51,055 nt of DNA from a bacterium (GTDB lineage Bacteria > SZUA-79 > Acidulodesulfobacterales > Acidulodesulfobacteraceae), in NCBI GenBank assembly GCA_021798875.1, contig JAJZBN010000012.1:1-51055 (forward strand), in the 5' to 3' direction. The notes below the pieces were generated by a model. It had not been told where the DNA came from. It saw nothing but the letters and a program-made list of their open reading frames with translations, and ran no database searches. Of the stretch, positions 23,008 to 51,055 are shown piece by piece. Position numbers and translations under genes: made by a program. How positions within the stretch are numbered: the stretch's first letter is position 1; the number at the start of each line of letters is the position of its first letter.

Positions 23008-23439
23008 ATGGCTATTATAATTCCGAAAAGCGAACTGGAAATAATAAAAAAGCATGCGGCGGATATTTTCCCTTATGAAGCTTGCGGAGGACTTCTCGGA
23101 AAAATAGAGGGAGAAAACAAAATTATCGTAAAAGCATACCCTGCTGAAAACCGCTACGGAAAAATTACCTGGGACAGTTTTGAGATAGAACCAAAAGATA
23201 TATTGGAAATGGATAAATTCTGCATGAAAGAAAACCTTGATATTCTGGGATTTTACCATACCCACCCTAACCATCCGGCAATTCCTTCAAACTTCGACGT
23301 AAACGCTTCCTGGCCTTTTTACTCGTACGTCATTCTTTCCGTAAAAGGCAGCGCACCAGAAAACGTCGCCGACATTAAAAGCTATCTTATGCCCGACAGA
23401 ACTTCTGCTCCGACCGAAGAAGAAGTTATAATAAGCTGA
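23008..23439 (+). CDS. JAMM/Mov34-family metalloprotease (Mec+-like)
   Basis: A zinc isopeptidase-type protease. The 143-residue protein has the complete JAMM site: Glu24 in FPYEACGGLLG, then HTHPNHPAIPSNFD with His84, His86, Ser94 and Asp97 (HxHPx6Sx2D). Mycobacterial Mec+ releases cysteine from CysO-Cys, and Wolinella HcyD trims the carrier to expose Gly-Gly. Either job fits here, since the operon encodes a carrier whose Gly-Gly is buried in a fusion. An AAGGACGG site precedes the ATG. Its 3' end overlaps the convergent DUF4338 gene by 14 bp. Confidence 0.92.
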   Translation: MAIIIPKSELEIIKKHAADIFPYEACGGLLGKIEGENKIIVKAYPAENRYGKITWDSFEIEPKDILEMDKFCMKENLDILGFYHTHPNHPAIPSNFDVNASWPFYSYVILSVKGSAPENVADIKSYLMPDRTSAPTEEEVIIS

Positions 23440-24676: not shown

Positions 24677-24677
24677 G

Positions 24678-26807
24678 TTATTCTATTTGCATTTTTTCAT
24701 TCCATTTATCCGCCGGAACGCATACAAAAGGTTTTAACTCTTCTTCACCGTTCTTAATCATAAAATGCGGACCCTGCAATATTTCGATTTCGTCTTCGCT
24801 GCAGTCAAATATGCAGCTGAATAAAGGTATAAATAAATCGTCTTCTTTCCTTATTTCGTCTTTAAACTCTTCTTTTTCTTTAAATTCTTTAACTATATAA
24901 TATAATCTGCCCTGATAAATTCCTATTTTATTTTTATCGTGAAAGTCTTGAGTTTTAAACTTATTGTTTTTTAATTCACTTTTTATACGTTCGAATATTT
25001 TTTCCGCCATTAATTTTAACCGCTCGTTGGCTTTTTTTACTACAAGCAATGCAGGGGAATTTTCGTATTTTTGCTTACTTTCAGGATTATCTTCGCTTAC
25101 TATATACTTTTTATAAAGATTTTCAAAACTGCGTATTCTGACAGGCAGAACAAAAGGCTGGAGAGGAGCGCTCCACATATAACAATTTCCGATTATAGGC
25201 TCGTTTATAATATTTAAAATAATATCTTTTGAATAGAAAGAATTATATCTTTGTAAAACGGATGCATCGCCCTCGGATAAAACGTGAAAAACAAACCAGT
25301 TATCCGACTGGCTTAATATTTCGGGAGCAATCGAACCCGGCTGCTGGGTAACCATAATAGCGCCCAAATCATATTTTCTGCCTTCTTTTACCCACTCTAC
25401 GAACGGACTTGTTTCCGAAAGTGATTTGCCCAAGACGCTTTGCGCTTCCTCCATTATCGCAATAACCGGAATAGAAGAGCCGTCTCCCGTAAAATTTTCC
25501 TGATTATAATTAAATATATTTCTCATTATAAGTCCTGCCATATTATTACCGGCGGTTGAACTAAGCAAACTTATATCTACTATTACGACCCTGCCTTCTT
25601 TCAGTAAAGTTTCCACTTCTTCTACCAATCTGCTGTTCGGGTCATGTAAATGGCTTACTAAATTATACATATTGCTTTTTGCCGCGCTAATTTCGGCAGA
25701 CTGACCGGAAGCAGACTCTTTATTATAGCCCATTATCGTAGCTATTTCTTTTTCGTCCGCCTGCATTTTATCTCTTTCTATAATATCTACAAGTTTTGTC
25801 CATTGTTCTTTTTTAAGACTTTTTAGTTTAATTATATTTTGCTGGTCCTGTCTGTCTGGAGAAATTGCTATACCGATAACGTCCCTCGGTAAAAGCGACT
25901 TAATGTTAAGCTTGACGTTCCCCGCTTTCCAACTGCCGTAATATGTATTTATAGATTTTCTATTGGTAAAAACTGCAATATTGTCCTTAAGATGCGGCAC
26001 GTCGCACAAAGCAGGCCTGTTTTTATTATCCGGCCAAAAATATTCGCCGTCGGGATCAAATATAAGCGTTCCTACTTTTTTATTTTTATCGGTGACGGCA
26101 TACTTTCCGTTTTCCTTATATAGTTCAGAGATTAAATACTTTATAAGATTCGACTTTCCGTAGCCCGCTCTTGCGAATACTACCGACCTCTTAGAAACCA
26201 GATTGTTTATATTAAATTTTACGTTAAGGTTAGGTTCGATATATTGAAAATTAGAAAGATAGTCCTTGCCTTCTCCTTCGGCGTTTTCGCTTTTTCCGGA
26301 ATAAATAAATTCGCCCAAAACATAATTGCCAAGATTGGTTTCTCCCTGACTTAACGAACATAGTTCTTTCAATACTTCATCGCTCGGAAGCGAAACTTTC
26401 GCACCAAGATGCGGTATCCTGCGCAGCGACGGTATAAAAATAATTTTATCCTGAGAATTTTGCGTCTGCGCTATTTTAACGGCGCCAAGCAGTTTAATTT
26501 GAACCTTATATTTTAATTTGTCTTTTTTTAAATCGTCTGGGACTGTCTGCCCTCTTTTTTGAAGAGCCATAATGTAGTCTTCGCCTTCTATCGTGGACAG
26601 AAGTCCAGCCGGAGCAAAATTAGTTATTCTGGCGAGAGAAGCTTCGAGGGGATTTGCAAGTTCTATTAATAAAAATTGACCTAATTGCGGTCTTTCGAGC
26701 ATGCGCGCATCGTAAGGAGTTACTACCTCGGCGGAAAATTCGTAACCAGATTCCACCGAACCCTTAAAAATACCTATTAAATCGGATTTTGCAAACAGTT
26801 CAAGCAT
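24678..26807 (-). CDS. herA: HerA-type hexameric DNA-translocating ATPase
   Basis: HerA is an FtsK/VirB4-like translocase that works with the nuclease NurA on DNA ends and recurs in prokaryotic defence systems. The 709-residue protein has an N-terminal HAS-barrel-like region (about residues 5-165). Walker A is at 211-220 (FARAGYGKSN). There is a DPDGEYFWPD segment, a Walker B ending IAIMEEAQSVLG, and a sensor region MVTQQPGSIAPEILSQSDNW. A 150-residue C-terminal extension is charged. It overlaps nurA by 8 bp and abuts the DUF4338 gene. Confidence 0.9.
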   Translation of the reverse strand: MLELFAKSDLIGIFKGSVESGYEFSAEVVTPYDARMLERPQLGQFLLIELANPLEASLARITNFAPAGLLSTIEGEDYIMALQKRGQTVPDDLKKDKLKYKVQIKLLGAVKIAQTQNSQDKIIFIPSLRRIPHLGAKVSLPSDEVLKELCSLSQGETNLGNYVLGEFIYSGKSENAEGEGKDYLSNFQYIEPNLNVKFNINNLVSKRSVVFARAGYGKSNLIKYLISELYKENGKYAVTDKNKKVGTLIFDPDGEYFWPDNKNRPALCDVPHLKDNIAVFTNRKSINTYYGSWKAGNVKLNIKSLLPRDVIGIAISPDRQDQQNIIKLKSLKKEQWTKLVDIIERDKMQADEKEIATIMGYNKESASGQSAEISAAKSNMYNLVSHLHDPNSRLVEEVETLLKEGRVVIVDISLLSSTAGNNMAGLIMRNIFNYNQENFTGDGSSIPVIAIMEEAQSVLGKSLSETSPFVEWVKEGRKYDLGAIMVTQQPGSIAPEILSQSDNWFVFHVLSEGDASVLQRYNSFYSKDIILNIINEPIIGNCYMWSAPLQPFVLPVRIRSFENLYKKYIVSEDNPESKQKYENSPALLVVKKANERLKLMAEKIFERIKSELKNNKFKTQDFHDKNKIGIYQGRLYYIVKEFKEKEEFKDEIRKEDDLFIPLFSCIFDCSEDEIEILQGPHFMIKNGEEELKPFVCVPADKWNEKMQIE

Positions 26808-29598: not shown

Positions 29599-30633
29599 AT
29601 GGTGAAAGTTAGCGATAATTTATCAGATATTAAAAAGATTTTCGTGGATTTCAGAGCCGCAAAATTTAATTTTGAAATTAGAGCCGAAAACGACGTCTTT
29701 CTTCCTGAATACAAAGGCTCTACTTTCAGAGGCGTATTCGGACACATTTTTAAAGACGTAATGTGTATATCCCATACGGGAGAATGCTCAAGCTGCAGTT
29801 TCGACAAAGTCTGTATGTTCAAAAAAATATTCGACTCTCCTCCGCCGGCAAATTCGCAGAAACTGCGCAATTATTCCGCAGTTCCGCACCCTTATATCAT
29901 AGAACCGCCCTTGGACCAGAAAAATTTTTACAAGAAAGATGAAATAATAAAATTTTCCTTAATACTTATCGGACAGGCAATTTCTTTATTTCCCTATTTT
30001 GCGTATTCTTTTGGACTTGCAGGAAAAAAAGGCATAGGCAGACAGAAAAAAGGTAAATTTATAATTACTAAAATCATTAACGATAAAGACGGAGAACTAT
30101 TATATTATTATAAAAACGACGAACTGAAATCTATAGACGATACCTATTCGATTGAAGATTTTATTCCGGAAAATAAAAGCGAAAATTTTTCGGTTAGTTT
30201 AAGATTTATAACGCCCACAAGAATTATGTTTAACGAAAAGCTCGTTTCCGAGCCTGAATTTCATATGTACGTCAGAAACGCTTTAAGAAGAATATCGAAC
30301 TTAAATTTTTTCCACTGCGTCAATCTTAACGATAAAGACAGCAAAAAATCGACATCCAATAACGATTATCTGCCCGAATTAGAGTTAGACTTCAACCACT
30401 ATATAGAAAAATCAATGTCCGTAAATTCTAAAAAATCTTTAAAATGGTATTCCTTAGACAGATATTCCAACAGGCAAAAAACCCATATGAAACTAAGCGG
30501 CTTTATAGGCGATTTATCTTTCGAAAAAGTTCCGTTCGAATATTTATGGATTATTAAACTCGGCGAATTAGTGCATATCGGCAAGAACACTACTTTCGGG
30601 CATGGACAATACTCAATAACGTCTATCTTATAA
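29599..30633 (+). CDS. cas6: CRISPR pre-crRNA processing endoribonuclease Cas6
   Basis: A RAMP-fold endoribonuclease that cuts repeat RNA. The 344-residue protein has an N-terminal ferredoxin-like part with a Cys cluster (CSSCSFDKVCMFKKI, about residues 68-82) and a Gly-rich AGKKGIGRQKKGKF segment. The C-terminal RAMP domain shows LRFITPTRIM and then GFIGDLSFEKV and the signature GELVHIGKNTTFGHGQYSI at the end. It is about 18 kb from cas1 and is not next to any effector-complex gene. The predicted repeat hairpin with an 8-base 3' tag in the array fits Cas6 cleavage. Confidence 0.9.
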   Translation: MVKVSDNLSDIKKIFVDFRAAKFNFEIRAENDVFLPEYKGSTFRGVFGHIFKDVMCISHTGECSSCSFDKVCMFKKIFDSPPPANSQKLRNYSAVPHPYIIEPPLDQKNFYKKDEIIKFSLILIGQAISLFPYFAYSFGLAGKKGIGRQKKGKFIITKIINDKDGELLYYYKNDELKSIDDTYSIEDFIPENKSENFSVSLRFITPTRIMFNEKLVSEPEFHMYVRNALRRISNLNFFHCVNLNDKDSKKSTSNNDYLPELELDFNHYIEKSMSVNSKKSLKWYSLDRYSNRQKTHMKLSGFIGDLSFEKVPFEYLWIIKLGELVHIGKNTTFGHGQYSITSIL

Positions 30634-35539: not shown

Positions 35540-38500
35540 CTATTCTATATTATTTAATATATCGTTAACATCTATGAGCATATTGTGCATTTTGCAAAAC
35601 TCTTTTAAAAAATTCATAGACTCCCGAAACTTTACTTCCATAGGATCTATTCTGTTTTTATTTTGTTTCTCCGAAGAAAGCATATTGAGATCTCCTATCA
35701 TGAACAATTGCTGTTTTACTCTTGTCATAGCCACGTTTAATCTGCGCCAATCTCTTAAAAAACCTATAGCATTTCGTTTATTCGACCTTACGAAAGAAAA
35801 AATTATTATATCTCTTTCCTGACCTTGAAAACTATCTACCGTTGCAACTATATCTTCTAAATCATTTATTTGTTTTATATTTTTTTTATTCATTCCCGCC
35901 TTGATAGCTTTTTTAATTTCATTGACATGATTTTTGTAAGGCGATATTATGCCTAAATCAAATTCGTCGTCATCCGAGCTTGCATTCTGAATCATTTTTA
36001 TAATATAAAGAATTATTTTAGTTTCTAATGTATTGCCCGTTACGCTTAGCATATCATCCTCCCCCTTAGAAGAAGACTCTTGCTTTATGCTCTCGGGAAC
36101 ATTTGAAGTATCGAAAAAAATTAAAGGCGACTTATATAAATCTTTAAAAGGTTTTCTTTTTGAAGTCGATTCATGGGAAAAATACTTATTTTCATAAAAT
36201 GCTTCGGAAATATAATCTACTACAATTTTTGGACATCTAAATTGTGTATCCAACATTACTTTCCTGCTTTCGGGAGAATTATTCCACAATACTTCAAAAA
36301 AGCTTTTTTCTAATAAATCTATGGTATACTTATCGTCGTCGCCTATGCGCGATACGACTTCGTCCTTTAATGCATTATCTATTACAGGAGGCAATTGCTT
36401 ATGGTCTCCTACTAAAATTGCTCTTGGAGCTCTTGAAAGCGGCACGATAACGTTTTGTATCTGTATTTGTCCCGATTCATCGACAATCGTAACATCAAAG
36501 TTTACGTTACTGAAACTCTTAGTAGTATTAATACCTATACATGTTGCGCCAACCACGTCAACCAACGACAATAGCATATTATACATAGATTGCTGTCTAA
36601 TGTTCTGCAATTCATTTCGCCATCCTTTAATTATCTCATAAACTCTTAGGTAATCGTTTCGCTGTTCATTAATAACCGCAATGTCTTCTTCGATTTTTCC
36701 CGATATATCCGAAGGAAATTTATATAAGTTTAACGACTCCAATGGTATAGGATATTTTATTTCATTATAATCATGCAATTTATTATTTATATCTTGGATT
36801 CTTCTTTCTAAATCGAATTTAATTTTATTTTGATCTTCTAAATTTTTTTCAGTATCATATTTTTCAGTATCATATTTTTCAGTTTTTTTGATATATTTTC
36901 TTTCATTAAATTGATAATAAGTTTTTTTAGCGCTCAAATATGCTTTATTAAAAAAGCTGAAAATTTTATTTAATAAATTTTCTTCAATGTTTTTTGCTTT
37001 TAAAGTTGATATTTTATCGTTATTTTCAATAATTTTTTTATTATTTTCTATTTTTTTGGACGACAAATTTTTTAATTTTAGATAATAATTTTCAAGTTTA
37101 TTTCTTATTTTATTTATTGTAATTATTAATTTGTTTAGGCTGTCGTTAAATTCTGCTAATTCTTTTTGGCTTTTTAAATAATCTGGCAAAGCTTCGCTTG
37201 TTTTTTTTAGATAATTTATTGCCTCGATTATTTCATTTATGGTTTTTTGTACTTGATTTGATATTTTTTCTTGTATATTTACGGCATAATTATCTATCAA
37301 TAAATCTTTTACGTCTTCGCTTAGCTTAGCTTCATTCCCTATTCTGACGCATTGAATAGATTTATCCTTTTTTAATCTGGCAAGCACGTTATCGACGGCT
37401 TTATTATTTTGAGAGGAGACCAAAACTCTCATTCCATAATCGGTAAAAAATTTAACCCATTGAGCTATAACGGTCGTTTTGCCAGTGCCTGGAGGACCTA
37501 AGACCAAAGAATAATCGGGAGTGTTAATGCCGTTTATTACGGCTTTTGCCTGCGATGGATTAAGTCCCATATTTATCAAGACCTGATCGTTTTCATAATT
37601 CATTATGTTTTTTAGAGGAATATAAGTATATTCATTGCTAATTACCTTAGATATCCATTTATTTACCGAAAGATTCCTTTTTAAATTATCCAATACCGAC
37701 AATCTGACATTTTTTAAAGTCGGCAAAGCAGATAAATATAAATTGGCGTTGGAGGGGATCTTTTCTAAACTTATCTGTTTATCGATAATTCCGATAATTT
37801 CAAAAATATTATTTTTATTTGTAATTTCATAAACTTCTACAGATATATCTTCATCATCATTCTTGCCATTTTTCAAGTCTATTCTTAAAAAAGAAGGTTT
37901 TATTTCTTTTATTCGCTTAAAATCGCTTTCTCCTAATTCAAATGAAAAATATTGCTTATATGAAGAAAGATGTGGCAAAGGTTTTACGGTAACATAAGAA
38001 AATGGAGGTATTGAGGAAGCGGCATTTTTTTCTACTTCGTATTCCGCTTCGACAAATTGACTAATATTTTCTAAATACTGGGTTTCGCTTTCGCTAATCT
38101 CTTCTGTTTCGTCTAGTTCGCCGTCAATTTTATCGCTTTTGTTAATATTTTCCTTTCGTAAATTGTGTGATTCGGCTAATTTTAACAAAGACAAACAATA
38201 ATCCGAACCGTTCCAAAATTTATTATTTTCAAATTGCGTCCTAAAATAGTCGCCGGTAACCAAGAAAATACCTTTATGTCTTAATCTAAAACCATTTCTA
38301 ATTATATTAGCCTTTTTCCTTGATGTAGCGAACTGTATACCTTTAAAAAAAAATAGCCTTAGCTTACCATCAGCATTATTTATACTACCTTGAATTAAAT
38401 ATAAGCCGTAAATTATTTGTACTAAAAAATTCTCTTTTATGCTATCTTTGAATTTATTAATGCTGATAAAACACGAACCGCTTTTTTGTATATCTCTTAA

Positions 38501-38632
38501 AACTTCATGAAATTCCGGTTGACGAGTCGGCCATTCGCATATTTTTGCAAATTTGGCATGATAAATAAAAACTATAGGGTTATTAAAATCGTCAATTTTA
38601 TTACCCCAAAAATCATAATCTATATTATTCAT
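35540..38632 (-). CDS. Large superfamily 1 (UPF1/Dna2-like) helicase
   Basis: The 1030-residue protein has about 380 residues of unassigned N-terminal sequence, then the helicase. Walker A is LVLGPPGTGKTTVIAQWV, followed by VLVSSQNNKAVDNVLARL (motif Ia). A roughly 200-residue coiled-coil insert is rich in Lys, Asn and Glu and contains a doubled EKYDT. Motif II is TIVDESGQIQIQ with GDHKQLPPV (motif III). The C-terminal AAA_12 half contains FRCPKIVVDYIS, TVDSFQGQERDIIIFSFVRSN and RLNVAMTRVKQQLFMIGD (motifs IV-VI). All catalytic motifs are intact. It lies 22 bp after the kinase gene. Confidence 0.9.
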   Translation of the reverse strand: MNNIDYDFWGNKIDDFNNPIVFIYHAKFAKICEWPTRQPEFHEVLRDIQKSGSCFISINKFKDSIKENFLVQIIYGLYLIQGSINNADGKLRLFFFKGIQFATSRKKANIIRNGFRLRHKGIFLVTGDYFRTQFENNKFWNGSDYCLSLLKLAESHNLRKENINKSDKIDGELDETEEISESETQYLENISQFVEAEYEVEKNAASSIPPFSYVTVKPLPHLSSYKQYFSFELGESDFKRIKEIKPSFLRIDLKNGKNDDEDISVEVYEITNKNNIFEIIGIIDKQISLEKIPSNANLYLSALPTLKNVRLSVLDNLKRNLSVNKWISKVISNEYTYIPLKNIMNYENDQVLINMGLNPSQAKAVINGINTPDYSLVLGPPGTGKTTVIAQWVKFFTDYGMRVLVSSQNNKAVDNVLARLKKDKSIQCVRIGNEAKLSEDVKDLLIDNYAVNIQEKISNQVQKTINEIIEAINYLKKTSEALPDYLKSQKELAEFNDSLNKLIITINKIRNKLENYYLKLKNLSSKKIENNKKIIENNDKISTLKAKNIEENLLNKIFSFFNKAYLSAKKTYYQFNERKYIKKTEKYDTEKYDTEKNLEDQNKIKFDLERRIQDINNKLHDYNEIKYPIPLESLNLYKFPSDISGKIEEDIAVINEQRNDYLRVYEIIKGWRNELQNIRQQSMYNMLLSLVDVVGATCIGINTTKSFSNVNFDVTIVDESGQIQIQNVIVPLSRAPRAILVGDHKQLPPVIDNALKDEVVSRIGDDDKYTIDLLEKSFFEVLWNNSPESRKVMLDTQFRCPKIVVDYISEAFYENKYFSHESTSKRKPFKDLYKSPLIFFDTSNVPESIKQESSSKGEDDMLSVTGNTLETKIILYIIKMIQNASSDDDEFDLGIISPYKNHVNEIKKAIKAGMNKKNIKQINDLEDIVATVDSFQGQERDIIIFSFVRSNKRNAIGFLRDWRRLNVAMTRVKQQLFMIGDLNMLSSEKQNKNRIDPMEVKFRESMNFLKEFCKMHNMLIDVNDILNNIE

Positions 38633-38654
38633 TATTTAAGTAGAAAATAAAAAG

Positions 38655-39602
38655 TTAATAATCTTTTAAATATTTATTAATTTTATTTATTATATTAGAA
38701 TTAAAAAAACTATAAAGTTCTTTACTTGAAGGTCTTGCATGCGGGTCAAAAGACAAACATTGTCTTATGGCGCTATTAAAATCAGTATTAATATTTTCTA
38801 TATTTTTTATTTTTTCTTCGGAAAAATTTTTTTTATTTTTACAATATTCTAAAAATAAGCCTAATAAATTTATTTCAGGTACCGATTTCCAATCCTTAAG
38901 GCTGTCGTTGGGATATAAATTTATGTTTTTAAAGTCAAATAAATTACAAATAATTTTTGCTAAAGAAAAAACATCGGTTTTTTCGGTTAAATTGAAATCT
39001 CTTTTACAAAACTGCTCGGGAGATTGAAATTCCGGCGTTCCTTCTTCATCTCTGTTTCTTTTTTGAGTTGCAAGACCAAAATCTATTATCATTATCTTTT
39101 GAAACTCTTTTTTATCATTAAATTGAACTATAATATTTTCAGGCTTCAAATCCCTATGGATTAATTTTGAATTATGTATAAACATCACGGATTCAATAAT
39201 TTTTTTTGTAATATTTAATCTTTTTCTAAATTCATTTAAGTCTAATTCTTTGTTTTTATTCAGCAATGTAAACTCATCTATATATTTTTTTAATGCAATG
39301 CCTTCGCACCAATCTATCAACAAATAAGCAAATCCGTGGTCCTGATAAATTAACCTTGCTTTAGGAAAAATTTCAGGTTTATTGATAGATATATTTAGGG
39401 CAATCATTTCTTTTTTGATTTCACTAAGGCTATTTAAAGAAAGATCAAAAACCTTAAGAGAATAAAAAATTTGCGTGTCTAAATCTTTTACTTTATATAA
39501 ACCCCTTCCGGTTTGTGCATTCATAGGATACAACTCATCCAAAATAAAAAATTTAATGATTTTATCGAATTTAATTTCGTCTTTTATTTTTAAAGAAATC
39601 AT
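38655..39602 (-). CDS. Ser/Thr protein kinase (Hanks type), active-site intact
   Basis: The 315-residue protein is a cytosolic eukaryotic-like kinase with no membrane helix. It has an N-lobe with TGRGLYKVKDLDTQIFYSLK, the catalytic loop LIHRDLKPENIIVQF (HRD with Asp and Asn) and the metal-binding IIDFGLATQ (DFG). The activation segment reads GTPEFQSPEQF, followed by KTDVFSLAKIICNLF and SFDPHARPSSKEL. Both catalytic Asp residues are present, so activity is expected. It lies 29 bp after the PP2C-NERD-pseudokinase gene, whose kinase-like domain lacks these residues; the pair may act together. Confidence 0.92.
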   Translation of the reverse strand: MISLKIKDEIKFDKIIKFFILDELYPMNAQTGRGLYKVKDLDTQIFYSLKVFDLSLNSLSEIKKEMIALNISINKPEIFPKARLIYQDHGFAYLLIDWCEGIALKKYIDEFTLLNKNKELDLNEFRKRLNITKKIIESVMFIHNSKLIHRDLKPENIIVQFNDKKEFQKIMIIDFGLATQKRNRDEEGTPEFQSPEQFCKRDFNLTEKTDVFSLAKIICNLFDFKNINLYPNDSLKDWKSVPEINLLGLFLEYCKNKKNFSEEKIKNIENINTDFNSAIRQCLSFDPHARPSSKELYSFFNSNIINKINKYLKDY

Positions 39603-39631
39603 AGTATATTAAATTAAAATAAAATAAATTA

Positions 39632-41845
39632 TTAATTCCAATTGGACAAAATGTCGACAAGCTGTTCTCCTACCGGTCTTTCAGCAGGATCCATAGAAAG
39701 CATTTTTTTCAAATTATCCAATTGACTTTCATCTATGCCCATTTTTTTTATATAATCCGACCATGCATTTTGTTTTCTTATAAACTTATTTAGGTCTATA
39801 TATGAGCCAAAGGGGATAGAATTATCTTCGCTTAAAGTATAACAAACAATCTTCCCAAAACTATAAACATCAGCAGAGGTAGTTAGAATATCGCCAGGAG
39901 TATTGACTTCCCTTGCTTGAAATTCTATATCTATCGATCTCCTGTTTTCCGGAGCTATAGTAGGCAGATATTCAAGGTGGCATAATTCAAAATTTGTGAG
40001 ATAAGGCAAAACTGCGCCTGCCGCATTAGTTTCTTTAATAATTATATTTTGAGGCGTTATCGCTCTATGGGTAATATTTTCCATGTGAAGCGCTAACAAA
40101 ATTTCGGACAATTTTTTTAAAACATTTATTTTTAAAGATCTTTCAGGGTTTGTTTTTAACCAATCGGCAAGCGTTATGCCTCCTATATCTTCCAGAATTA
40201 CATAAAAGCAGCCTTCTTCGTAAAATTTATCTATATAACTCTGCAATCCCTCAACATGTCTTAAATCCTGCAAAGCCGAAAGCTCTCTTTCTAATCTTTT
40301 TCGTTCATCTTCTTCGTTGCCTTTTGCCATAGAAGTCAATTTATATTCTTTAACTATTATTTTTTTATTTTTATTTTCTATATAATGGCCGCGATAAATT
40401 TTTAAATATTTATAAACCCCTTCGGCAGTTTTCAGGTTAAATTTAAATCTTCCTATTATTTTAAAATCAGTCTCGTTGTCGATAGTTCTTTCTTCCAATA
40501 TTAAATTATTTAAAATTTCACCTAATAAATTTATTTCTTTTTCCGTTAATTTGTATTCATCTTTGATATTAGAATCACTAAAATTTTTCTTTAACACTTC
40601 TGGTATATCAACGGTTTTAGTTATAGTTACTTCTCCAAATTTGAAAGGAATGCCACAAGAGACTTGCTGTTTTAGGCACTCAACCGTTAAATCATTATTC
40701 GTATAAATGAATAGTCCGTTTTTTATACAATTGTTAGCAATTTTATCTAAACCATTTTTTTTTGCGGTTACGTTTATATTGCTAGCAAAAATATTAATAA
40801 TTTCAATTATAGACTTGACTTTGCTATTTGTCTTCTCCTTGCGCAATTCACCGTTATTATTTTTATATTCCGTGTACTCTTTGTAATTGTCTAAATCGAT
40901 TATTATTTTTCCGCTATAATTTTTTAATTCAAGTAAGTATATGCCTAACGGAGATATTAAAATTCCGTCGAATCTTCTTATGCTTCCGTTTTTGTTTATA
41001 ATAGGATTAGATCCTACTATTTTAAAACCGCGGAAATCCGCATCTTCAAATAAAACATTAGCTATATCCGATAAACCTTTTTTTTCATGTTCGTATTCTT
41101 CCTGTTTCCCTATAAAAGGATTATAAGGCCATTCAGGATTTATATAGCCCAGTCTATTTTCGTATGGAAAAACTATAAAAGCCCAATCTTTTTCCGAGGC
41201 GATATCTTTTCCTAAATCTTTCCATTCTTTCTCGGTTGTTTTTGAGTTTAAAATTTTAACATCTATTTTCTTTAACTTTTCATAATCTATTCCGTCTGTA
41301 GATAGCATAAAAAATGAATCGCTGTTTTTTTCTAAATCGATAGTGTTATGATTCGGAAGTATATTCTCATTAAGCCCTATAACTTCTATAGGCTGACTCT
41401 CTAAAGGAATAACGTTCATTATTTGATCGTCTTTTGGGGAATATGGATTTATTTGGTACAAACGTGGATTGCCTACCCAAGCAAACTCGACTTTCTTTCC
41501 TATTCTTCTTATTATTACTACTACGGCATACAATTTAAGATTTTCGGCATTGGATTTATTTATTAAATGTTTGTTTAACTTTAATATTATTTCGTCAAGG
41601 GGAGTTTTAAAAAAATCTACTTTGTTTTCTTTATTGTCTCCCTCATAACAAAAATTTTTTAATATTTCAACCGTATAATCTGCGGATTTAACAGGATCCG
41701 AAGAACCCGATACTCCGTCTACAAGCACTGCTATATCGCCTGAATCGTGAATCCATACTTTATCGGCGCTTTTCATATAGCCTATAGCCGTACTATCCGG
41801 AACAAAAGCTTTAAAAAAAAGATACCGTAAATCGTCTTTTATCAT
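39632..41845 (-). CDS. PP2C phosphatase-NERD nuclease-pseudokinase fusion
   Basis: Three domains in 737 residues. Residues 10-230 resemble a PP2C phosphatase: AVLVDGVSGSSDP with Asp43, MLSTDGIDYEK with Asp184, and a degenerate last motif EKDWAFIVF. Residues about 250-320 are a NERD domain (RRFDGILISPLGIYLLELKN), with Asp293 and the Glu-x-Lys of a PD-(D/E)xK-like nuclease. Residues about 465-735 are kinase-like, but HRD is HRA (THRAITPQNIII) and DFG is NFE, so the domain is a pseudokinase. NERD-kinase combinations occur in phage-defence protein PglW. This tri-domain order is one I do not recall. Confidence 0.8.
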   Translation of the reverse strand: MIKDDLRYLFFKAFVPDSTAIGYMKSADKVWIHDSGDIAVLVDGVSGSSDPVKSADYTVEILKNFCYEGDNKENKVDFFKTPLDEIILKLNKHLINKSNAENLKLYAVVVIIRRIGKKVEFAWVGNPRLYQINPYSPKDDQIMNVIPLESQPIEVIGLNENILPNHNTIDLEKNSDSFFMLSTDGIDYEKLKKIDVKILNSKTTEKEWKDLGKDIASEKDWAFIVFPYENRLGYINPEWPYNPFIGKQEEYEHEKKGLSDIANVLFEDADFRGFKIVGSNPIINKNGSIRRFDGILISPLGIYLLELKNYSGKIIIDLDNYKEYTEYKNNNGELRKEKTNSKVKSIIEIINIFASNINVTAKKNGLDKIANNCIKNGLFIYTNNDLTVECLKQQVSCGIPFKFGEVTITKTVDIPEVLKKNFSDSNIKDEYKLTEKEINLLGEILNNLILEERTIDNETDFKIIGRFKFNLKTAEGVYKYLKIYRGHYIENKNKKIIVKEYKLTSMAKGNEEDERKRLERELSALQDLRHVEGLQSYIDKFYEEGCFYVILEDIGGITLADWLKTNPERSLKINVLKKLSEILLALHMENITHRAITPQNIIIKETNAAGAVLPYLTNFELCHLEYLPTIAPENRRSIDIEFQAREVNTPGDILTTSADVYSFGKIVCYTLSEDNSIPFGSYIDLNKFIRKQNAWSDYIKKMGIDESQLDNLKKMLSMDPAERPVGEQLVDILSNWN

Positions 41846-41909: not shown

Positions 41910-42404
41910 CTATTTAACTATATTACTCTCAATATAAAATATAATCTTATCGTAAATGGAAAATATTTTAGGAATTAATTTTTCATAAACAATATTAATA
42001 TTAATAACTAATTCATTTTCTTCCGAAGAATATTCATGCGATAGAGAGTTTCTGGATTTTCTAAGTTCATCCCAATCATTTGCGCTTTCTATAATCTCTA
42101 ACTTTTCTAATCTGTCAATTAAATCGCGGAACGGTTTATTCTCAAAATTTTCTTTTAAATTTTTTAATATTGTAGGAAATAGTTTTTCTCCCATAGCATC
42201 TTGCAATTTTGAATATCTGAATATAAATTGGTCTATGTGTTCTTTGTCGTCCTCTGATAAAGACCGATAATCGTCTAACGTCAGCGGCATAAAATTTTTC
42301 ATTTTCGATATAGCATGTTTTATTTTTACTATATGCCTGTCGCATTCTTCTATGTAATTTAAAAGCTTTAAACGGTCTACGTCTATTTCATGGTTATTTT
42401 CCAT
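41910..42404 (-). CDS. hepT: HEPN-family toxin-like RNase (HepT)
   Basis: The 164-residue helical protein carries the HEPN RNase motif RNSLSH (R-x4-H) near residue 120 in ELRKSRNSLSHEYS. The start codon overlaps the mntA stop by one base (TAATG), giving the standard MNT-HEPN (type VII toxin-antitoxin) arrangement. HEPN toxins cleave RNA and are silenced when the MNT partner polyadenylates them near the motif. Its position between CARF and kinase genes suggests island context, though pairs like this are also common alone. Confidence 0.88.
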   Translation of the reverse strand: MENNHEIDVDRLKLLNYIEECDRHIVKIKHAISKMKNFMPLTLDDYRSLSEDDKEHIDQFIFRYSKLQDAMGEKLFPTILKNLKENFENKPFRDLIDRLEKLEIIESANDWDELRKSRNSLSHEYSSEENELVININIVYEKLIPKIFSIYDKIIFYIESNIVK

Positions 42405-42706
42405 TATTTAAGCAGCACCCCCTGCGATTTGGCTATTTTGTATATAGGCAAATTTTCATCGGAATCAATATTTTTAATTATCACGTCAATTTTTCGTTCG
42501 CCTATTTTTTTTTCAAGCTCGACTAAAAATTTTATTTTATTTTCAAAAATATCTTTATTTTGATCGGTTTCTATAAATATATCTATATCTCCGCCTTTTT
42601 TAGCATCGTCTACCCTTGAGCCGAATAAATATGTATTTGAGTTTGCGCCAAAAAATTTTACAGTTGTTTCTTTAATCGCCTTAATTTCATATTCCTTTAA
42701 TCTCAT
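42404..42706 (-). CDS. mntA: MNT-family nucleotidyltransferase antitoxin (MntA)
   Basis: The 100-residue protein has the minimal nucleotidyltransferase active site: TYLFGSRVDDAKKGGDIDIF, a GS-x9-DxD motif with the metal-binding Asp pair, then LEKKIGERKIDVIIKNID with the third Asp. MntA neutralises HepT by transferring AMP from ATP. It precedes hepT and overlaps it by one base. Fifty-five bases separate it from the upstream CARF gene. Confidence 0.9.
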   Translation of the reverse strand: MRLKEYEIKAIKETTVKFFGANSNTYLFGSRVDDAKKGGDIDIFIETDQNKDIFENKIKFLVELEKKIGERKIDVIIKNIDSDENLPIYKIAKSQGVLLK

Positions 42707-42761: not shown

Positions 42762-43907
42762 CTATAATTTCTTATCTATCTTAATATTTCTTTTGTCGGT
42801 GAATACGCCGTATCTTTTACCGTAGCTTCCAGTCTTCGATATTTTGTAAACCGCATATTCAAAAGGATTTAAATGTTTTTTAATCTTTTTGTTGATATTT
42901 GAAATATTCTGCATAAAAAATTCGTCGCCTTTGTCCTGCTTTTTAAAAGACTCGGCAAGCCTTTCATATTGTCCGCTGTTTTTTGAATAAATCTTTTCAT
43001 AAACGTTCAAAATAATTTTAATATTATCGTCGGACGAAAGGTCGTTTACTGAGAGATAACAGTCCGTGCAGTCTCCGCAAAAATCGTTTCTACATTTAAT
43101 TTTTAAATAATGAAAAAGATAATAAATGGATAATTCAATAGGACGAAGCGTAATTTTTTTGCTTCCCAAAAGAACGGATGTATTTTTAATATCGAAAGCG
43201 ACTATCTTGTCTCCGCAATAATCGATTTTTTTCTGGGCTATTCCTACTAAATCATCGTAAAACAGGTCGTCTTTGATATTTAAAAGTTTGCGCAATTTTA
43301 AAAAAACTATTTCCGAAGAATAAATTTTAGCGTCTTTAGTTTCCAAAATTTTTAACGTGCTTCCGGATACGTCTTTAACCTCTATTTTTTTGTTATAAGG
43401 CGGAATATAATAAAAATCCTTATTTGACTCAAATTCGGGGCTTACTAAAATATGACACAGTATATCGTCGTCTTTTGCATATAGCTGTGCCGCGAGGGCA
43501 AGATACGCCGTCATAGTTTTTCTGCCTCCGGCTGCGGAAAATATACATTTAGAATCTGGAATTAACGTAATTTCTTTAACGTACTGAACTATTTCGTTTC
43601 CGATTATTGCGCTGTCTTTATCGGAAATTATATCTTCTACCGGAGCATCCGAACCCAGAACGGTAATTGAACTTTCGTCGAATTTAATATTTGCGGGGTC
43701 TATATTGTAATCTTTGCAAAAAGCATAAAACTTGCCGTTATTTTTATCTAAAAGCGTATTAATTATTTTTTGTTTTCCGGGGCTTGTCGTTAAAACTTTT
43801 ATTTCGTCTATCCAAAATGGCGGCTTTCTGTCTATTAAATAATAATATAAAGTCTCCGTAACTATCTGCGGACTTAAACCGGCTATACTTACCAATATTG
43901 TTTTCAT
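42762..43907 (-). CDS. CARF-domain CRISPR-associated protein, NE0113/TIGR02584 family
   Basis: The start MKTILVSIAGLSPQIVTETL and SAAGGRKTMTAYLALAAQLY (residues 124-143) are the two hallmark strands/loops of this CARF family, which is linked to type III CRISPR and cyclic-oligoadenylate signalling. The 381-residue protein also has a Cys cluster, KCRNDFCGDCTDCYL (Cys 272, 277, 280, 283), spaced like a metal site, in its C-terminal half. No cas10 is nearby. It is the first gene of the minus-strand run that includes MNT-HEPN and, further on, the kinases. Confidence 0.82.
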   Translation of the reverse strand: MKTILVSIAGLSPQIVTETLYYYLIDRKPPFWIDEIKVLTTSPGKQKIINTLLDKNNGKFYAFCKDYNIDPANIKFDESSITVLGSDAPVEDIISDKDSAIIGNEIVQYVKEITLIPDSKCIFSAAGGRKTMTAYLALAAQLYAKDDDILCHILVSPEFESNKDFYYIPPYNKKIEVKDVSGSTLKILETKDAKIYSSEIVFLKLRKLLNIKDDLFYDDLVGIAQKKIDYCGDKIVAFDIKNTSVLLGSKKITLRPIELSIYYLFHYLKIKCRNDFCGDCTDCYLSVNDLSSDDNIKIILNVYEKIYSKNSGQYERLAESFKKQDKGDEFFMQNISNINKKIKKHLNPFEYAVYKISKTGSYGKRYGVFTDKRNIKIDKKL

Positions 43908-45330: not shown

Positions 45331-46896
45331 TTAAAACAAATCGATAGTCAGCTTCAAATTATCTCTGTTACCTTCTTTTTTTAAAGTGCCATATCTTGTG
45401 TCAATTTTATCGGAGTTTACCGAATCAAATAATTCGCTCAATCGGTCTTTTGATTTTTTATAATTTTCGGCTGCAACTGCTAACGCTTTTTTATGTTTTA
45501 AAAATTCTATGATTATTTCCTCGTTATCGTAATTTAAAACATTCGTATTTATATTATTTATATTAGCGCAAAGACTCATAAAATAATTAACCATGTCTTT
45601 GCCGTCCCGAGCATGTCCAAAGTTATCGTTTCTTACTATATATTCGCCGACCGTCGTAACACCGTTAATATGCGATATAACGGCTTCTTTATCTAATGGG
45701 CTATCTACTTTGGAATATGATACTTTTCCTTCTTGCGTAACTGCGCCTATTGCATAAAAATTGTCCGAACCGGTAAAAAGCGATAAAAATTTTGGAACTA
45801 TTAATTTTAACATGTCCGGCTTTTTTGCTTCTTGCACAGCTAAATCAATAATCTTTAAATCTTCTTTTATATCGTTATCTATGTTTTCATTTTCTTTATC
45901 ATTAGGCTCGCTTTCAAAATCGTCAATTTTTTCATTTTTAGACGCCAAAAAATATTCTTTCATCTTCCCCGCTAAACCGTTTAAGCCCATTTTGCCGTAT
46001 ATGTAAGACAGTTTATCGTAAGCTTCATCGAAATATGGGTTTTTTTCTGTAAATCTGTTTATAAGCCTTATAGCTTTTTCGTAATCCCCTTTTTCTAAAA
46101 AATAGTCCGAAATCTTAAGAATTCTTTCTCCATCGTCTTGGTCTTTTGATATAAAATCAAAGGAATCTTTTTCAAGATCAAGTTCGTTCGATAAAATTGC
46201 GGCATCTAATTTCACGTCTCTCGTATATTTATAAGCGTCAGGACTTGATGGACTTGTTACATCTTCGCTGATTTTTTCAACCCCTTCATCCGACAATATT
46301 TTATCTTTTATGGATTTTATAATAAAAGACGAAATATCTTTTTGATAACTTTTAGCAAGCAATGCGCTTTTTAAAAGCGATAATCCTATATGTAATTCAG
46401 GTTTTTCTTTTGAGCTTTTTTCCTTAGACAAAGTTAGCATAACTTCGTTTTCCAAATATTTAACCGCCGTATCTCTTAGTTTTTCGCAATTTTCCAGAGT
46501 GCCGGCAAACATTACGAAATCGTCTGCATAACGCAAATATTTAGAACCGGATTCTTTAAACACAAGTTTATCAAAATCGTTAAGATAAATATTGCCGAAC
46601 AAAGGAGAAGTTGGGGAGCCGAGACTTATTCCTTTCGGCGAATATTCAGAAGAACTTTTAATAATTATAGAAAGAAGATTTATAAGAGGTTTTTCTTTTA
46701 CGACTTTTTTAATTTTTTCAAGTAAAAGTGCCGTATCTATAGAATCAAAAAAAGAATGTATATCGGCGTTAAAAGCAAAGTTAATCTCCTGTTCTTTACA
46801 CAAATTTTCGGTCTTAATAACCGCCTGCATAGCTGATTTTCTTGGCCTGTAACCATAAGAACACCTTAAAAACAATTTCTCGAATAACGGTTCCAA
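45331..46896 (-). CDS. CRISPR-associated reverse transcriptase, 5'-truncated, with TPR and primase-like C-terminal parts
   Basis: Reverse-transcriptase core in the first 130 residues: SYGYRPRKSAMQAV, catalytic ADIHSFFDSID (Asp at 45), GISLGSPTSPLFGNIYLNDF and YLRYADDFVMF (YADD at 123-126). TPR-like helices follow (YFLEKGDYEKAIRLINRF, about residues 265-320). The C-terminal region (GSDNFYAIGAVTQEG, PLDKEAVISHINGVTTVGEY) resembles the start of an archaeo-eukaryotic primase. The only start codon is TTG at 46894-46896, yet the frame continues upstream to 46998 with clear RT residues, so the true N-terminus is lost. It adjoins truncated cas2 and intact cas1. Confidence 0.88.
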   Translation of the reverse strand: MEPLFEKLFLRCSYGYRPRKSAMQAVIKTENLCKEQEINFAFNADIHSFFDSIDTALLLEKIKKVVKEKPLINLLSIIIKSSSEYSPKGISLGSPTSPLFGNIYLNDFDKLVFKESGSKYLRYADDFVMFAGTLENCEKLRDTAVKYLENEVMLTLSKEKSSKEKPELHIGLSLLKSALLAKSYQKDISSFIIKSIKDKILSDEGVEKISEDVTSPSSPDAYKYTRDVKLDAAILSNELDLEKDSFDFISKDQDDGERILKISDYFLEKGDYEKAIRLINRFTEKNPYFDEAYDKLSYIYGKMGLNGLAGKMKEYFLASKNEKIDDFESEPNDKENENIDNDIKEDLKIIDLAVQEAKKPDMLKLIVPKFLSLFTGSDNFYAIGAVTQEGKVSYSKVDSPLDKEAVISHINGVTTVGEYIVRNDNFGHARDGKDMVNYFMSLCANINNINTNVLNYDNEEIIIEFLKHKKALAVAAENYKKSKDRLSELFDSVNSDKIDTRYGTLKKEGNRDNLKLTIDLF

Positions 46897-46998
46897 AACA
46901 TTCAGAACGGCCGTTTGAACGACTCTGTCTCTAACGCATGGAACGCTTAGCGTTCTAACCTTTTCCGAAAAATGCGCTTTATGCTGAAATTTTACTTC
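46897..46998 (-). other. RT coding sequence upstream of the first usable start
   Basis: Read in the reverse-transcriptase frame, these 34 codons give EVKFQHKAHFSEKVRTLSVP and then CVRDRVVQTAVLNV, directly continuing into LEPLFEKLF. That is the conserved RT segment before the catalytic motifs. There is no start codon here and a stop (TAA at 46999-47001) closes it. About 60 residues that usually precede it in RTs are absent. It overlaps the truncated cas2 by 20 bp in another frame. Confidence 0.75.
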
Positions 46999-47149
46999 TT
47001 ATTTCCTGAAACATTTTATCAAACTGTTTCTTCTTAAGCGTAGCTTCAAATACGCTGAACTGAACGTGCGTTCCATAGTCCTTAAGAAGTTTAAATAACT
47101 TAAGTCTTGTCTTATCGTCCTTAATGTCGTATGAAATAATATAAAACAT
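46979..47149 (-). CDS. cas2: Cas2, 3'-truncated
   Basis: The ATG at 47147-47149 directly follows the cas1 stop. The frame encodes 56 residues: MFYIISYDIKDDKTRLKLFK, then LLKDYGTHVQFSVFEATLKK and KQFDKMFQEIRSKISA, then TAA (46979-46981). These are the first two thirds of Cas2: the beta1 strand with the catalytic-type Asp in YDIKD and the VQFSVFEA strand. The C-terminal strands (normally about 30-40 more residues, ending in a Cys-rich or hydrophobic strand) are missing. It joins straight into the RT coding sequence. Confidence 0.88.
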   Translation of the reverse strand: MFYIISYDIKDDKTRLKLFKLLKDYGTHVQFSVFEATLKKKQFDKMFQEIRSKISA

Positions 47150-48160
47150 TTAATTACCGTATTCTGTTTTATAAATTATCGACTTTCTTAGCATATTGAC
47201 TTTTTCTTTAATATACAACCTATTTGATTTTATTTTTGCGCTTAAGGTTGCGTCGTTGCTGCTTGGATCGCCTGTATCGCCGGAATTAGTCGCATACATC
47301 AGCTTATCGTAAAAAATAAAATATTTTTTCATTGCTTCCGGTTTCAAAAAAGTACCGTCTGACGTAGTTATAAAATCATTTTCGGTTAAAATAGATTTGT
47401 TCAAAAGTTTTAACGTAAAACCATCGATAGCGCTTCTAAATTCTTCTACTACGTCAAGCGCAAGAGAAGGCCGTCCGTAATTTATACCGTGCAGAAAACC
47501 TATATAAGGGTCGAAACCCTGTCCTATCAATACGCTCAATATCTCGTTTGTGACAAGAGTATATCCAAAACTCAATAATGAATTTATAGGATCTACCGAA
47601 GGATTTTTTTGGCGGACGCTAAATACCAAGTTTTCGTTACGAATCATCATCTTAAATGCTTTAAAAAAATATGAAGCTGCTATTCCCTCTATTCCCATAA
47701 CGGAATTTATAGTACTCTTATTTTTTAAAAGCTCTCTGCATTTTTTAATTGCTATTAAAATTTCTTTAAATCTTGATATTCCGTAATTTTTTGTAAAAGC
47801 ATAAATCAAATCGATTTCGTTGCCTAATTTTATATCTACAATTTTTTTAGCTAAATTAACTTGAAATTCTTTATCCAAATATCTTTCGTACTGCGCGAGT
47901 CTTAAAAATATATTTTTAGAATCTATAGCCGCCAATCTGCCGTGGCATTTTCCGCCCATAGTAAAAAATGAGACGTCTATATTGCTCTCTAGCAGAAAAT
48001 TCATTGCCTGCGTCGTTAATTGAACATTTCCAAATATAAAAATCCTTTCCACTTTAAAAATCGGAACTTCTAAAATAATCGCAGAATCTTTGGATATGAC
48101 GATCCTGCGCGAAGTTTTAGAAATAACCGCACCTTGTTCCGAAATATAAATTGTGGACAT
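47150..48160 (-). CDS. cas1: CRISPR-associated endonuclease/integrase Cas1
   Basis: Cas1 with Cas2 inserts spacers at the leader end of CRISPR arrays. The 336-residue protein has an N-terminal beta-rich domain (MSTIYISEQGAVISKTSRRI to HGRLAAIDSKNI) and a helical catalytic domain. The three metal ligands are visible: Glu158 in MGIEGIAASYF, His224 in GFLHGINYGRPSLALD and the acidic group Asp236/Glu239 in LALDVVEEFR. It is complete, about normal length, and not fused to RT. It is first in the minus-strand order cas1-cas2-RT. Confidence 0.97.
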   Translation of the reverse strand: MSTIYISEQGAVISKTSRRIVISKDSAIILEVPIFKVERIFIFGNVQLTTQAMNFLLESNIDVSFFTMGGKCHGRLAAIDSKNIFLRLAQYERYLDKEFQVNLAKKIVDIKLGNEIDLIYAFTKNYGISRFKEILIAIKKCRELLKNKSTINSVMGIEGIAASYFFKAFKMMIRNENLVFSVRQKNPSVDPINSLLSFGYTLVTNEILSVLIGQGFDPYIGFLHGINYGRPSLALDVVEEFRSAIDGFTLKLLNKSILTENDFITTSDGTFLKPEAMKKYFIFYDKLMYATNSGDTGDPSSNDATLSAKIKSNRLYIKEKVNMLRKSIIYKTEYGN

Positions 48161-48662: not shown

Positions 48663-48977
48663 TTAAAAATCATCGTCAAAACCCGAACTACCGCCGCCAA
48701 AGCTATCGTCGTTGCCGAAACTATCGTTTGTTCCGAAATCGCTGTTATTGCTTAACGTATCGTTGTTCATAAAATCGTTGTCAGAATTCATAAAACTATC
48801 GTCGCTATTGTTGAAATCGTCAGAGTTGTCCATCCCATAAGGATTTCCGCCAACATCAAAACCGCTAGTATCTCCGTTAATCATTGGAAGTCCCGAAGCA
48901 GGATTAATAGTCGTGCCGCTATCAATAGTTCCGCTATCGTCGTTAAACAAGCCGTTAAGCCAACTAAATAAGCCCAT
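48663..48977 (-). CDS. Asp/Asn/Ser/Gly-rich small protein with NPxxGLPM and NPYG motifs
   Basis: The 104-residue protein opens MGLFSWLNGLFNDDSG. It has NPASGLPMINGDTSGFDVGG followed by NPYGMD, a motif pair I recall from small hypothetical bacterial proteins. The tail is long and built of Asn, Asp, Ser, Gly and Phe (repeated NDxF/DSF units). An AGGAGGGGT site precedes the ATG, so it is expressed. No function can be stated. The tail looks intrinsically disordered. Confidence 0.75.
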   Translation of the reverse strand: MGLFSWLNGLFNDDSGTIDSGTTINPASGLPMINGDTSGFDVGGNPYGMDNSDDFNNSDDSFMNSDNDFMNNDTLSNNSDFGTNDSFGNDDSFGGGSSGFDDDF

Positions 48978-49220
48978 ATTAATACCCCTCCTATTATTTA
49001 ATAATTACCGCATTGTTTTATTTATACCGCCGTTACAAAATACTTTCAACTACTTTTTTGCTTTTTTGCTTGTTAATTTCTTTTCGCTGTTTAAAATCAA
49101 TGCTATTAATAAATTTTAAAATCTATATATCAATAAAATATTTATAAATGTCAAGATTTCTATTTTTTAACCAGCAATATTTTCTTTATAAAACTAAAGC
49201 AATCTTTTTTCAGACTTAGG
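48978..49220. other. Gene-free stretch between the low-complexity gene and the CRISPR array
   Basis: These 243 bases are AT-rich. They carry the ribosome-binding site and presumably the promoter of the minus-strand gene at 48663 (no good -10/-35 pair seen), and T-rich runs near 49050-49080. I find no convincing ORF, RNA gene or repeat here. The stretch ends at a degenerate CRISPR repeat (49221). Confidence 0.5.
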
Positions 49221-49256
49221 ATCATAATCCATAATAAATCGGGTAAATATTCTTAC
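49221..49256 (-). repeat. Degenerate terminal CRISPR repeat
   Basis: These 36 bases match the array repeat at 28 of 36 positions without gaps. The differences are at repeat positions 1, 4, 5, 11, 13, 21, 24 and 34. A 41-base spacer-like stretch (49257-49297) separates it from the first perfect repeat. Decayed repeats mark the trailer end of arrays, which places the leader at the opposite, right-hand side. Confidence 0.85.
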
Positions 49257-49297: not shown

Positions 49298-50965
49298 GTC
49301 GCAATCCCTTATAAATCAGGGAAATATTCTAACACTTTTAATCCCATTGCGACATTTGTATTTTTTCGTCGCTCAAAGTCGCAATCCCTTATAAATCAGG
49401 GAAATATTCTAACGTCACTGTGCGCCAAGCGCACGTTGACTGCGATGAGGAAGGATATGAGTATCTTTCCGATTATAGTCGCAATCCCTTATAAATCAGG
49501 GAAATATTCTAACAAAGATAAAAATTAACATTAAATTAAGTAGGAAAAAATGGAAAAGGTCGCAATCCCTTATAAATCAGGGAAATATTCTAACATAGTC
49601 AATGATAAGGGTATCCAAAATATTGACTATGTGTCGCAATCCCTTATAAATCAGGGAAATATTCTAACCAACCGTCAACAATAAACTGCCCCTTAATAGG
49701 GGTTGTGTATGTCGCAATCCCTTATAAATCAGGGAAATATTCTAACGTCTCGACTACCTCTCTTGAAGATGGCTCTTTCGAAGGGATTGTCGCAATCCCT
49801 TATAAATCAGGGAAATATTCTAACCTTAATGATAGGGGATTCGTAGATCAATATGGCAACTTCCTGTCGCAATCCCTTATAAATCAGGGAAATATTCTAA
49901 CCTTAATGATAGGGGATTCGTAGATCAATATGGCAACTTCCTGTCGCAATCCCTTATAAATCAGGGAAATATTCTAACGGTTTTTTATCCCAGATCAAAG
50001 ATCTTGGTCTGGGGTATTAGTCGCAATCCCTTATAAATCAGGGAAATATTCTAACTTGTGCGACCTTTGGTTTTACGGTAAAACCATAAAAAAAGTCGCA
50101 ATCCCTTATAAATCAGGGAAATATTCTAACATAAAAAAGGAACAAATAAAGGCATGTAAAAGAGAACAAGGTCGCAATCCCTTATAAATCAGGGAAATAT
50201 TCTAACATTTTGAGGAGGTGAGAGTAAATGGATAAGTTAATTGGGTCGCAATCCCTTATAAATCAGGGAAATATTCTAACGGTTTTGTAAGGAGAAAAAA
50301 ATGATAATAGTAAATATATTGTCGCAATCCCTTATAAATCAGGGAAATATTCTAACCAATCGTTTTGAAAGTTTCAGAAGTCTAGTCTGTATCTTTTGGT
50401 CGCAATCCCTTATAAATCAGGGAAATATTCTAACGAAACCAAATTCTGATATGATAGAATATATTTTAAATAAGGTCGCAATCCCTTATAAATCAGGGAA
50501 ATATTCTAACTTTCGGAAGAGGCGGAGAAAGACCGCAGGCGTTTTACGGGTCGCAATCCCTTATAAATCAGGGAAATATTCTAACAAAAATTAAATTAGC
50601 CCCGCGCAAGTGCCAGCAATGGGTCGCAATCCCTTATAAATCAGGGAAATATTCTAACCTAACATTAATTAAGGAGGGTTAAAATGTCATTAGAAAATGT
50701 CGCAATCCCTTATAAATCAGGGAAATATTCTAACATGTTTGAAAAAATCGAAAATTTCATAGCCGGAAACGGCTATGGTCGCAATCCCTTATAAATCAGG
50801 GAAATATTCTAACTGGTTTTGCAAGGAGAAAAAATGACAGCAAATGAAACGATTGGTCGCAATCCCTTATAAATCAGGGAAATATTCTAACAAAATGTTA
50901 GAATTTATAATCGTTGCTACCTTATTGGTGTCGCAATCCCTTATAAATCAGGGAAATATTCTAAC
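49298..50965 (-). CRISPR. CRISPR array: 22 identical 36-bp repeats, 21 spacers
   Basis: The repeat on the plus strand starts GTCGCAATCCCTTATAAATC and ends AGGGAAATATTCTAAC, 36 bp, identical in all 22 copies (starts 49298, 49378, 49478 and onward to 50930). Spacers are mostly 37-45 bp, with one of 64 bp (49414-49477). On the minus strand the repeat has a CCCT-AGGG hairpin followed by exactly eight bases, ATTGCGAC, the classic Cas6 product tag. I therefore assign minus-strand transcription. Two adjacent spacers (49825-49865 and 49902-49942) are identical. The effector type is not encoded here; Cas6, CARF proteins and RT suggest type III. Confidence 0.98.
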
Positions 50966-51055
50966 ACTACCCTTTGTAAGTAGTTGCAATTATTAAGTTA
51001 TTTGAACCGTTTTTCGTAATGTCCGAGTTATCCACAGGTTATCAACAGTTTTTTT
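50966..51055 (-). promoter_or_regulatory. CRISPR leader (partial, cut by the window edge)
   Basis: The 90 bases right of the last perfect repeat are AT-rich and lie upstream of the array in the inferred minus-strand orientation. They contain no repeat and no ORF. They should hold the array promoter and the Cas1-Cas2 integration site, but no clear -10/-35 is visible in the part that is present. Two DnaA-box-like 9-mers lie at the outer end. Confidence 0.6.
51028..51047 (+). promoter_or_regulatory. Tandem DnaA-box-like 9-mers
   Basis: TTATCCACA (51028-51036) is a perfect match to the DnaA box consensus TTATNCACA. TTATCAACA (51039-51047) differs by one base and follows after two bases in the same orientation. 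A T run begins at 51049. They might belong to an origin or a DnaA-controlled promoter that continues beyond the window, or be part of the CRISPR leader. Confidence 0.6.

Follow-up and report, generated by a model that had tools for sequence, protein, structure and literature searches.

Fusions of a reverse transcriptase (RT) to a primase-polymerase (prim-pol) encoded near Cas1 and Cas2 are named CART-CAPP in PMC10415136, where structure 8BGJ is assigned to the RT domain of the CART-CAPP protein from Caloramator, and a CAPP-RT type is among those listed in PMC8211822. The family is therefore already known. According to these papers, the CART-CAPP genes of Caloramator australicus (CCJ33120) and Geobacillus lituanicus adjoin cas1-cas2 and encode an N-terminal RT, then a prim-pol, then a C-terminal domain. 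Intact relatives of the gene analyzed here share this location and this order, but they are longer (965-1110 aa versus 713) and have a TPR-like stretch separating the RT from the prim-pol.

The window, meaning the whole stretch of DNA that we analyzed, is 51,055 nt long and belongs to a 126-contig draft genome (G000). Compared with CART-CAPP, its copy of the gene is missing four parts: the start of the RT, motif 7 together with the thumb, the core of the prim-pol, and the region that follows. The remnant adjoins cas1 and cas2, as expected of CART-CAPP. The features are as follows, with residue numbers taken from the intact protein of a congener, G014:

29599..30633, plus strand: cas6-like gene
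42762..43907, minus strand: intact gene for a CARF-domain protein (Cas_NE0113/Csx1-like)
45331..46998, minus strand: remnant frame of the RT-TPR-prim-pol (CART-CAPP) gene, from PF00078 RVT_1 and a six-way protein alignment
45523..45561, minus strand: junction J4 region, after the prim-pol, with ~112 codons fewer than G014, frame kept
45619..45622, minus strand: junction J3, where ~217 codons of the prim-pol core (G014 residues 595-811) are lost in frame
46410..46411, minus strand: junction J2, where 81 codons (G014 residues 259-339) are lost in frame
46979..47149, minus strand: truncated cas2, 56 codons and a stop, 92 aa in relatives
46985..46998, minus strand: junction J1, cas2 codon ~50-54 fused to RT residue ~64, from alignment and flank comparison
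47150..48160, minus strand: intact cas1, 336 aa, PF01867 E 6.6e-85
49298..50965, minus strand: CRISPR array, 22 repeats of 36 nt, 21 spacers
50966..51055, minus strand: leader-side flank, similar to that of the G014 array, up to the contig end

With the remnant as query, a search of G000 and its relatives, 99 genomes in all, found matches in 24, the closest in the same genus. In G014, cas1, cas2 (92 aa), and a single 1018-aa gene follow one another, and the large protein runs from a reverse transcriptase through a TPR-like stretch and an archaeo-eukaryotic primase (prim-pol) to a C-terminal domain. Its Pfam matches are RVT_1 (71-275), TPR models (~437-481), AEP-TOTE (567-753), and, under the cut-off, Mu_Gam-TOTE (957-1017). 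Among solved structures it matches group II intron RTs, the Cas6-RT-Cas1 structure 7kft, the RT 8bgj, and, at residues 536-740, 7nqf/7nqd, which are listed as a TPR_REGION domain-containing protein and which we take to be chains of a CAPP. The G014 gene thus follows the CART-CAPP layout already described for CRISPR adaptation loci. The CAPP of Marinitoga piezophila shows the same order of TPR, prim-pol, and C-terminal domain in PMC8211822, but it is without the RT of the G014 protein; its catalytic core is what is missing in the window. The Pfam names AEP-TOTE and Mu_Gam-TOTE in the G014 protein match those expected of a TOTE conflict system, but the gene lies in a cas1-cas2 locus, and a literature search on TOTE found nothing.

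Other relatives with the gene include G003 (cas2 of 92 aa, RT gene of 965 aa), G027 (RT frame of 1101 aa), G021 (1097 aa), and G016 (1110 aa). A scan of genome contigs with the remnant found only three RT loci, at 35-39% identity, and IMG/VR held no RT-prim-pol relatives. No relative with this cas2-RT joint was seen among the 99 genomes searched with the remnant. At two loci, G003:C4 (L027 4198-8913) and G006:C184 (L033 1-2979), transposase and helper genes, presumably of IS21 type judging from their translations, abut a 5'-truncated RT-prim-pol gene.

The original prediction had cas2 ending after 56 residues with its last strands missing, and the comparison confirms this. The cas2 frame (47149-46982) closes with TAA at 46981-46979, and its product matches positions 1-54 of 74 in the Pfam CRISPR_Cas2 profile (PF09827), versus 1-73 for the intact Cas2 of G014, so that the last ~36 residues, and with them the C-terminal strands of the full domain, are absent. 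A working type III adaptation module has intact Cas1 and Cas2 in one operon; here Cas1 is whole and Cas2 is truncated. Likewise, the RT frame was said to overlap cas2 and to begin mid-RT with no start codon before 46896; it is open from ~46998 to 45331, overlaps the cas2 end, and aligns from its first residues to residue 64-65 of the 1018-aa protein. Its first ATG, GTG, or TTG is the TTG at 46896, and the 20 bases ahead of this codon contain no Shine-Dalgarno-like stretch. Relative to G014, ~0.35 kb is absent at J1 (the cas2 end and RT residues 1-64). We considered a programmed frameshift yielding a Cas2-RT fusion and rejected it, because the RT frame is +1 relative to cas2 and a -1 slip cannot reach it; no slippery site was seen by eye at the TAA.

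The original prediction explained this joint by one deletion and proposed a comparison with relatives carrying intact cas1-cas2-RT. Full cas2 and RT are indeed present in G014 (where cas1 is frameshifted), and loss of the cas2 end together with the RT start is supported, the arrangement being intact in G014, while G003 too has cas2 and a long RT gene. That there was a single deletion is not supported: the G014 DNA and protein alignment and a six-way protein alignment (window, G014, G003, G027, G021, and G016) reveal four gaps, with 243, ~651, and ~336 nt also missing from the gene by G014 coordinates. These further junctions, at 46411/46410, 45621, and 45561-45523, go beyond what had been noticed, as does the identity of the gene as an RT-prim-pol fusion. 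The loss at J2 includes the GFDFLGY motif, and we take the missing residues, going by the RT literature, to be RT motif 7 and the thumb. J4 is given as a region rather than an exact point because the linker is variable; the loss falls between SLCAN and EEIIIEF. The remnant still matches RVT_1 at positions 6-191 of 205 (E 5.6e-25) with the catalytic YADD kept, and it has a weak Pfam match to Mu_Gam-TOTE. Complete RT fingers, motif 7, and thumb are not in the window (G014 residues 1-64 and 259-339 being absent), and the remnant has no match to the prim-pol (AEP) catalytic domain at E 0.05.

We also compared the 13 window frames between 35.5 and 49 kb with a 19-kb stretch of G014. Two of them (42404-42706 and 41910-42404) have no counterpart there, and among the 11 that do, only the RT frame is split into separated pieces by sequence that the window is missing. 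Only 1 gap position separates the kinase from its counterpart and 2 the helicase, and frame 48663-48977 aligns over 78/104 residues. The first 264 aa of the window Cas1 can be aligned to the G014 Cas1, whose gene (L025 8526-9569) has a 1-nt frameshift after residue 264 that is either a lesion or a sequencing error; this G014-side frameshift is the only split in cas1, and a variable C-terminal linker also differs. Neighbors common to the window and another congener, G011, have similar lengths. Searching all of G000 with the full G014 protein found no second copy of the missing parts anywhere, only the remnant pieces on the window contig (C85), one distant RT, and one distant primase-like match. 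Pieces are missing from the gene, then, that have intact counterparts in relatives, lie between intact neighbors, and occur in no second copy.

Several genes of other kinds lie nearby. A nucleotidyltransferase (Polbeta) and an NTase_sub_bind-like gene form a pair at 41910-42706 beside the CARF gene, presumably of the MNT/HEPN toxin-antitoxin kind. At 35540-41845 are an MkoA-like helicase and two protein-kinase genes, one with a NERD domain, in a gene order shared with G014 that resembles a defence cluster, and at 23426-26807 a DruA-like (DUF4338) gene adjoins a HerA-like ATPase.

We consider it probable, at roughly three chances in four, that the locus is an adaptation cassette of the CART-CAPP kind, belonging to a type III CRISPR system and inactivated only recently. 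Its ancestor would have had cas1, cas2 at full length, and a CART-CAPP gene, whose reverse transcriptase fused to prim-pol may have converted invader RNA or DNA into prespacers for Cas1-Cas2. Of the four deletions proposed, one would have taken the cas2 C-terminus together with the RT start, one RT motif 7 and the thumb, one the prim-pol core, and one the region following it. We infer that these losses are recent and took place in the cell. The remnants would not be expected to fold as Cas2, to prime, or to polymerise; the locus has therefore most likely stopped acquiring spacers, and adaptation here is likely lost, judging from the missing parts. Counting against this loss is a second cas1-cas2 on contig C124, though it lies beside arrays with different repeats. 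This would be ordinary gene decay of a known kind, such genes and their loss being known already. Counting against decay is that all three internal losses are in frame, which has a chance of 1 in 27, and that the remnant has zero stops or frameshifts across ~1.65 kb; neither is typical of a freely decaying gene. Three in-frame internal losses alongside no small indel or nonsense change are the one oddity of this reading. In G016, a five-contig genome, the RT-prim-pol protein (L032) lacks an in-frame stretch of ~18 residues that would lie between RT motifs 2 and 3; in-frame losses in this gene are therefore not confined to the window.

The main rival, although an unlikely one, is that the gaps are an artefact of assembly, scaffolding, or clone selection and that the organism has the whole gene. 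G000 is a draft, the four gaps fall within one gene whose neighbors are whole, and the unbroken frame and constrained-looking RT core resemble a correctly copied gene with pieces skipped. However, the missing parts are on no other contig of G000, the window contains no N, and comparison with the flanks in relatives shows very few shared bases at the joins (at most ~8 at J1 and ~1-3 at J2 and J3), too little for ordinary k-mer overlap joins; long direct repeats are likewise absent there. A mild excess of replacements in the window lineage also hints at real relaxation.

That excess emerged from codon comparisons. Relative to G014, the RT core has a dN/dS of 0.061, the next stretch one of 0.138, and the C-terminal 64 residues one of 0.199, compared to 0.046 for cas1 and 0.055 for NE0113; the AEP N-terminal stretch was left out as misaligned. 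These low values indicate that the gene was constrained for most of the time since the split from G014. With G003 as the third sequence to assign changes to branches, the RT-prim-pol gene has 47 replacement and 51 silent codons on the window branch versus 25 and 46 on the G014 branch, a difference that is not significant against this fairest control, the same gene in G014 (Fisher p 0.12). On the window branch, cas1 and NE0113 together have 23 replacement and 62 silent codons (p 0.004 versus the RT-prim-pol gene). Four other relatives agree with one another at 251 columns; the window departs from them at 31 of these and G014 at 18 (p 0.085), while at invariant columns of cas1 the two depart at 10/186 and 11/186, respectively. 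The two genes do not differ significantly in this respect (p 0.29). Overall, the replacement excess in the window lineage points to relaxation without proving it.

These data also bear on whether the shortened frame encodes a working mini-protein, with the RT core, TPR-like stretch, and C-terminal domain serving as a Cas1 scaffold; selection would have preserved the frame as the polymerase and primase parts were lost. All three internal losses are in frame, and a Marinitoga prim-pol fragment without the CTD (TPR and AEP) interacts with Cas1 in yeast two-hybrid, according to PMC8211822. However, no start codon with a ribosome-binding site heads the frame, RT motif 7, the thumb, and the prim-pol core are missing, and replacements tend to be in excess. 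In addition, cas2 is broken too, so the window locus would yield no Cas1-Cas2 integrase, and we regard a working mini-protein as very unlikely. To the stronger proposal, that selection pruned the frame into a catalytically dead scaffold serving Cas1 and that the RT-prim-pol protein is now a structural part of the CRISPR locus, we give a smaller chance still. Most improbable is a single event in which a template-jumping, reverse-transcribed copy of the cas2-RT transcript recombined into the chromosome: the gaps are limited to the cas2-RT stretch, with none in the flanking genes, and the affected gene itself encoded a reverse transcriptase, but template jumping usually leaves short repeats at joins, and J2 and J3, so far as this can be judged from relatives, have no more than one to three shared bases.

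Elsewhere in the genome, a Cas10/Cmr2 protein is encoded on contig C87, next to an array whose repeat is almost that of the window array, and a further array with a variant repeat is on contig C107. Because Cas10/Cmr2, the Cas6-like gene, and arrays are present, interference from the window array is plausible, and with Cas1, the array, Cas6, and the Cmr effector persisting, interference from stored spacers may continue. Adaptation from the window's own cas operon is not plausible. The arrays beside the second cas1-cas2 on C124 have unrelated repeats. That second Cas1 (L056) is 100% identical in protein sequence to a Cas1 of congener G011:C79 (L104), which suggests recent exchange between species. 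The locus would represent a CART-CAPP cassette shedding its acquisition enzymes while array and effectors persist, and the same module is damaged in other species of the genus (G003 and G006 with IS21-type genes, G014 with the cas1 frameshift). Compared with intact relatives that have near-identical repeats, such natural knock-outs could be used to probe the role of the RT and prim-pol in the spacer repertoire.

The window array, whose leader side is the high-coordinate end, is accompanied by a degenerate repeat at ~49219-49256 and includes an exact duplicate of one repeat-spacer unit at 49789-49941, with identical neighboring spacers. We examined spacers of the window array (49298-50965) and of arrays in L025, L026, L028, L030, L031, L032, L058, L063, L064, and L106, scoring the strand complementary to the predicted crRNA for a ribosome-binding site plus ATG, a motif that is post hoc because it was defined after spacer inspection. 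In the RT-prim-pol set of nine arrays from seven species, 45/357 spacers carry the motif (shuffled mean 16.6), versus 1/357 on the opposite strand; for the control set of eleven arrays, from loci that do not have the gene and with orientation taken as found, the counts are 14/347 and 5/347 (shuffled 6.5 and 5.7). The mean folding z-score is -0.71 (s.e. 0.08) for CART-CAPP spacers and -0.06 (0.05) for controls (Mann-Whitney p 2e-7). Spacers of CART-CAPP arrays are thus richer than the controls both in the one-strand motif and in RNA hairpins. The C107 array was placed in the CART-CAPP set by its repeat only, and some repeat consensuses are too short (C87, G003, and above all the C124 control, at 22 nt), so bits of repeat lie within those spacers. 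The only control that is clearly a type III locus, G041 (with no RT in the stretch read), has the start-codon and strand signal (5/23 versus 0) and no hairpin signal.

According to PMC9048733, RT-free type III adaptation favors secondary structures of single strands, the terminator hairpins of riboswitches, and sequence that follows closely after start codons. The spacer pattern thus fits published type III preferences and is no proof of RNA origin. Snap-back synthesis by RT-Cas1, described in PMC11014452, is not decisive for this case, and literature searches on spacer bias in RT systems, Record-seq, and cas2/RT pseudogenes found little. Among the four leader-nearest spacers of the window array, the motif is present in two (1 and 3), and the other two (0 and 2) start at or near an ATG. 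That the usual pattern extends up to the newest spacers is weak evidence, fitting loss of the enzymes after the last acquisitions. When we searched IMG/VR for protospacers with three spacer stretches from the window, two patterns had no match, and the loose ribosome-binding-site pattern from a window spacer had one (L109).
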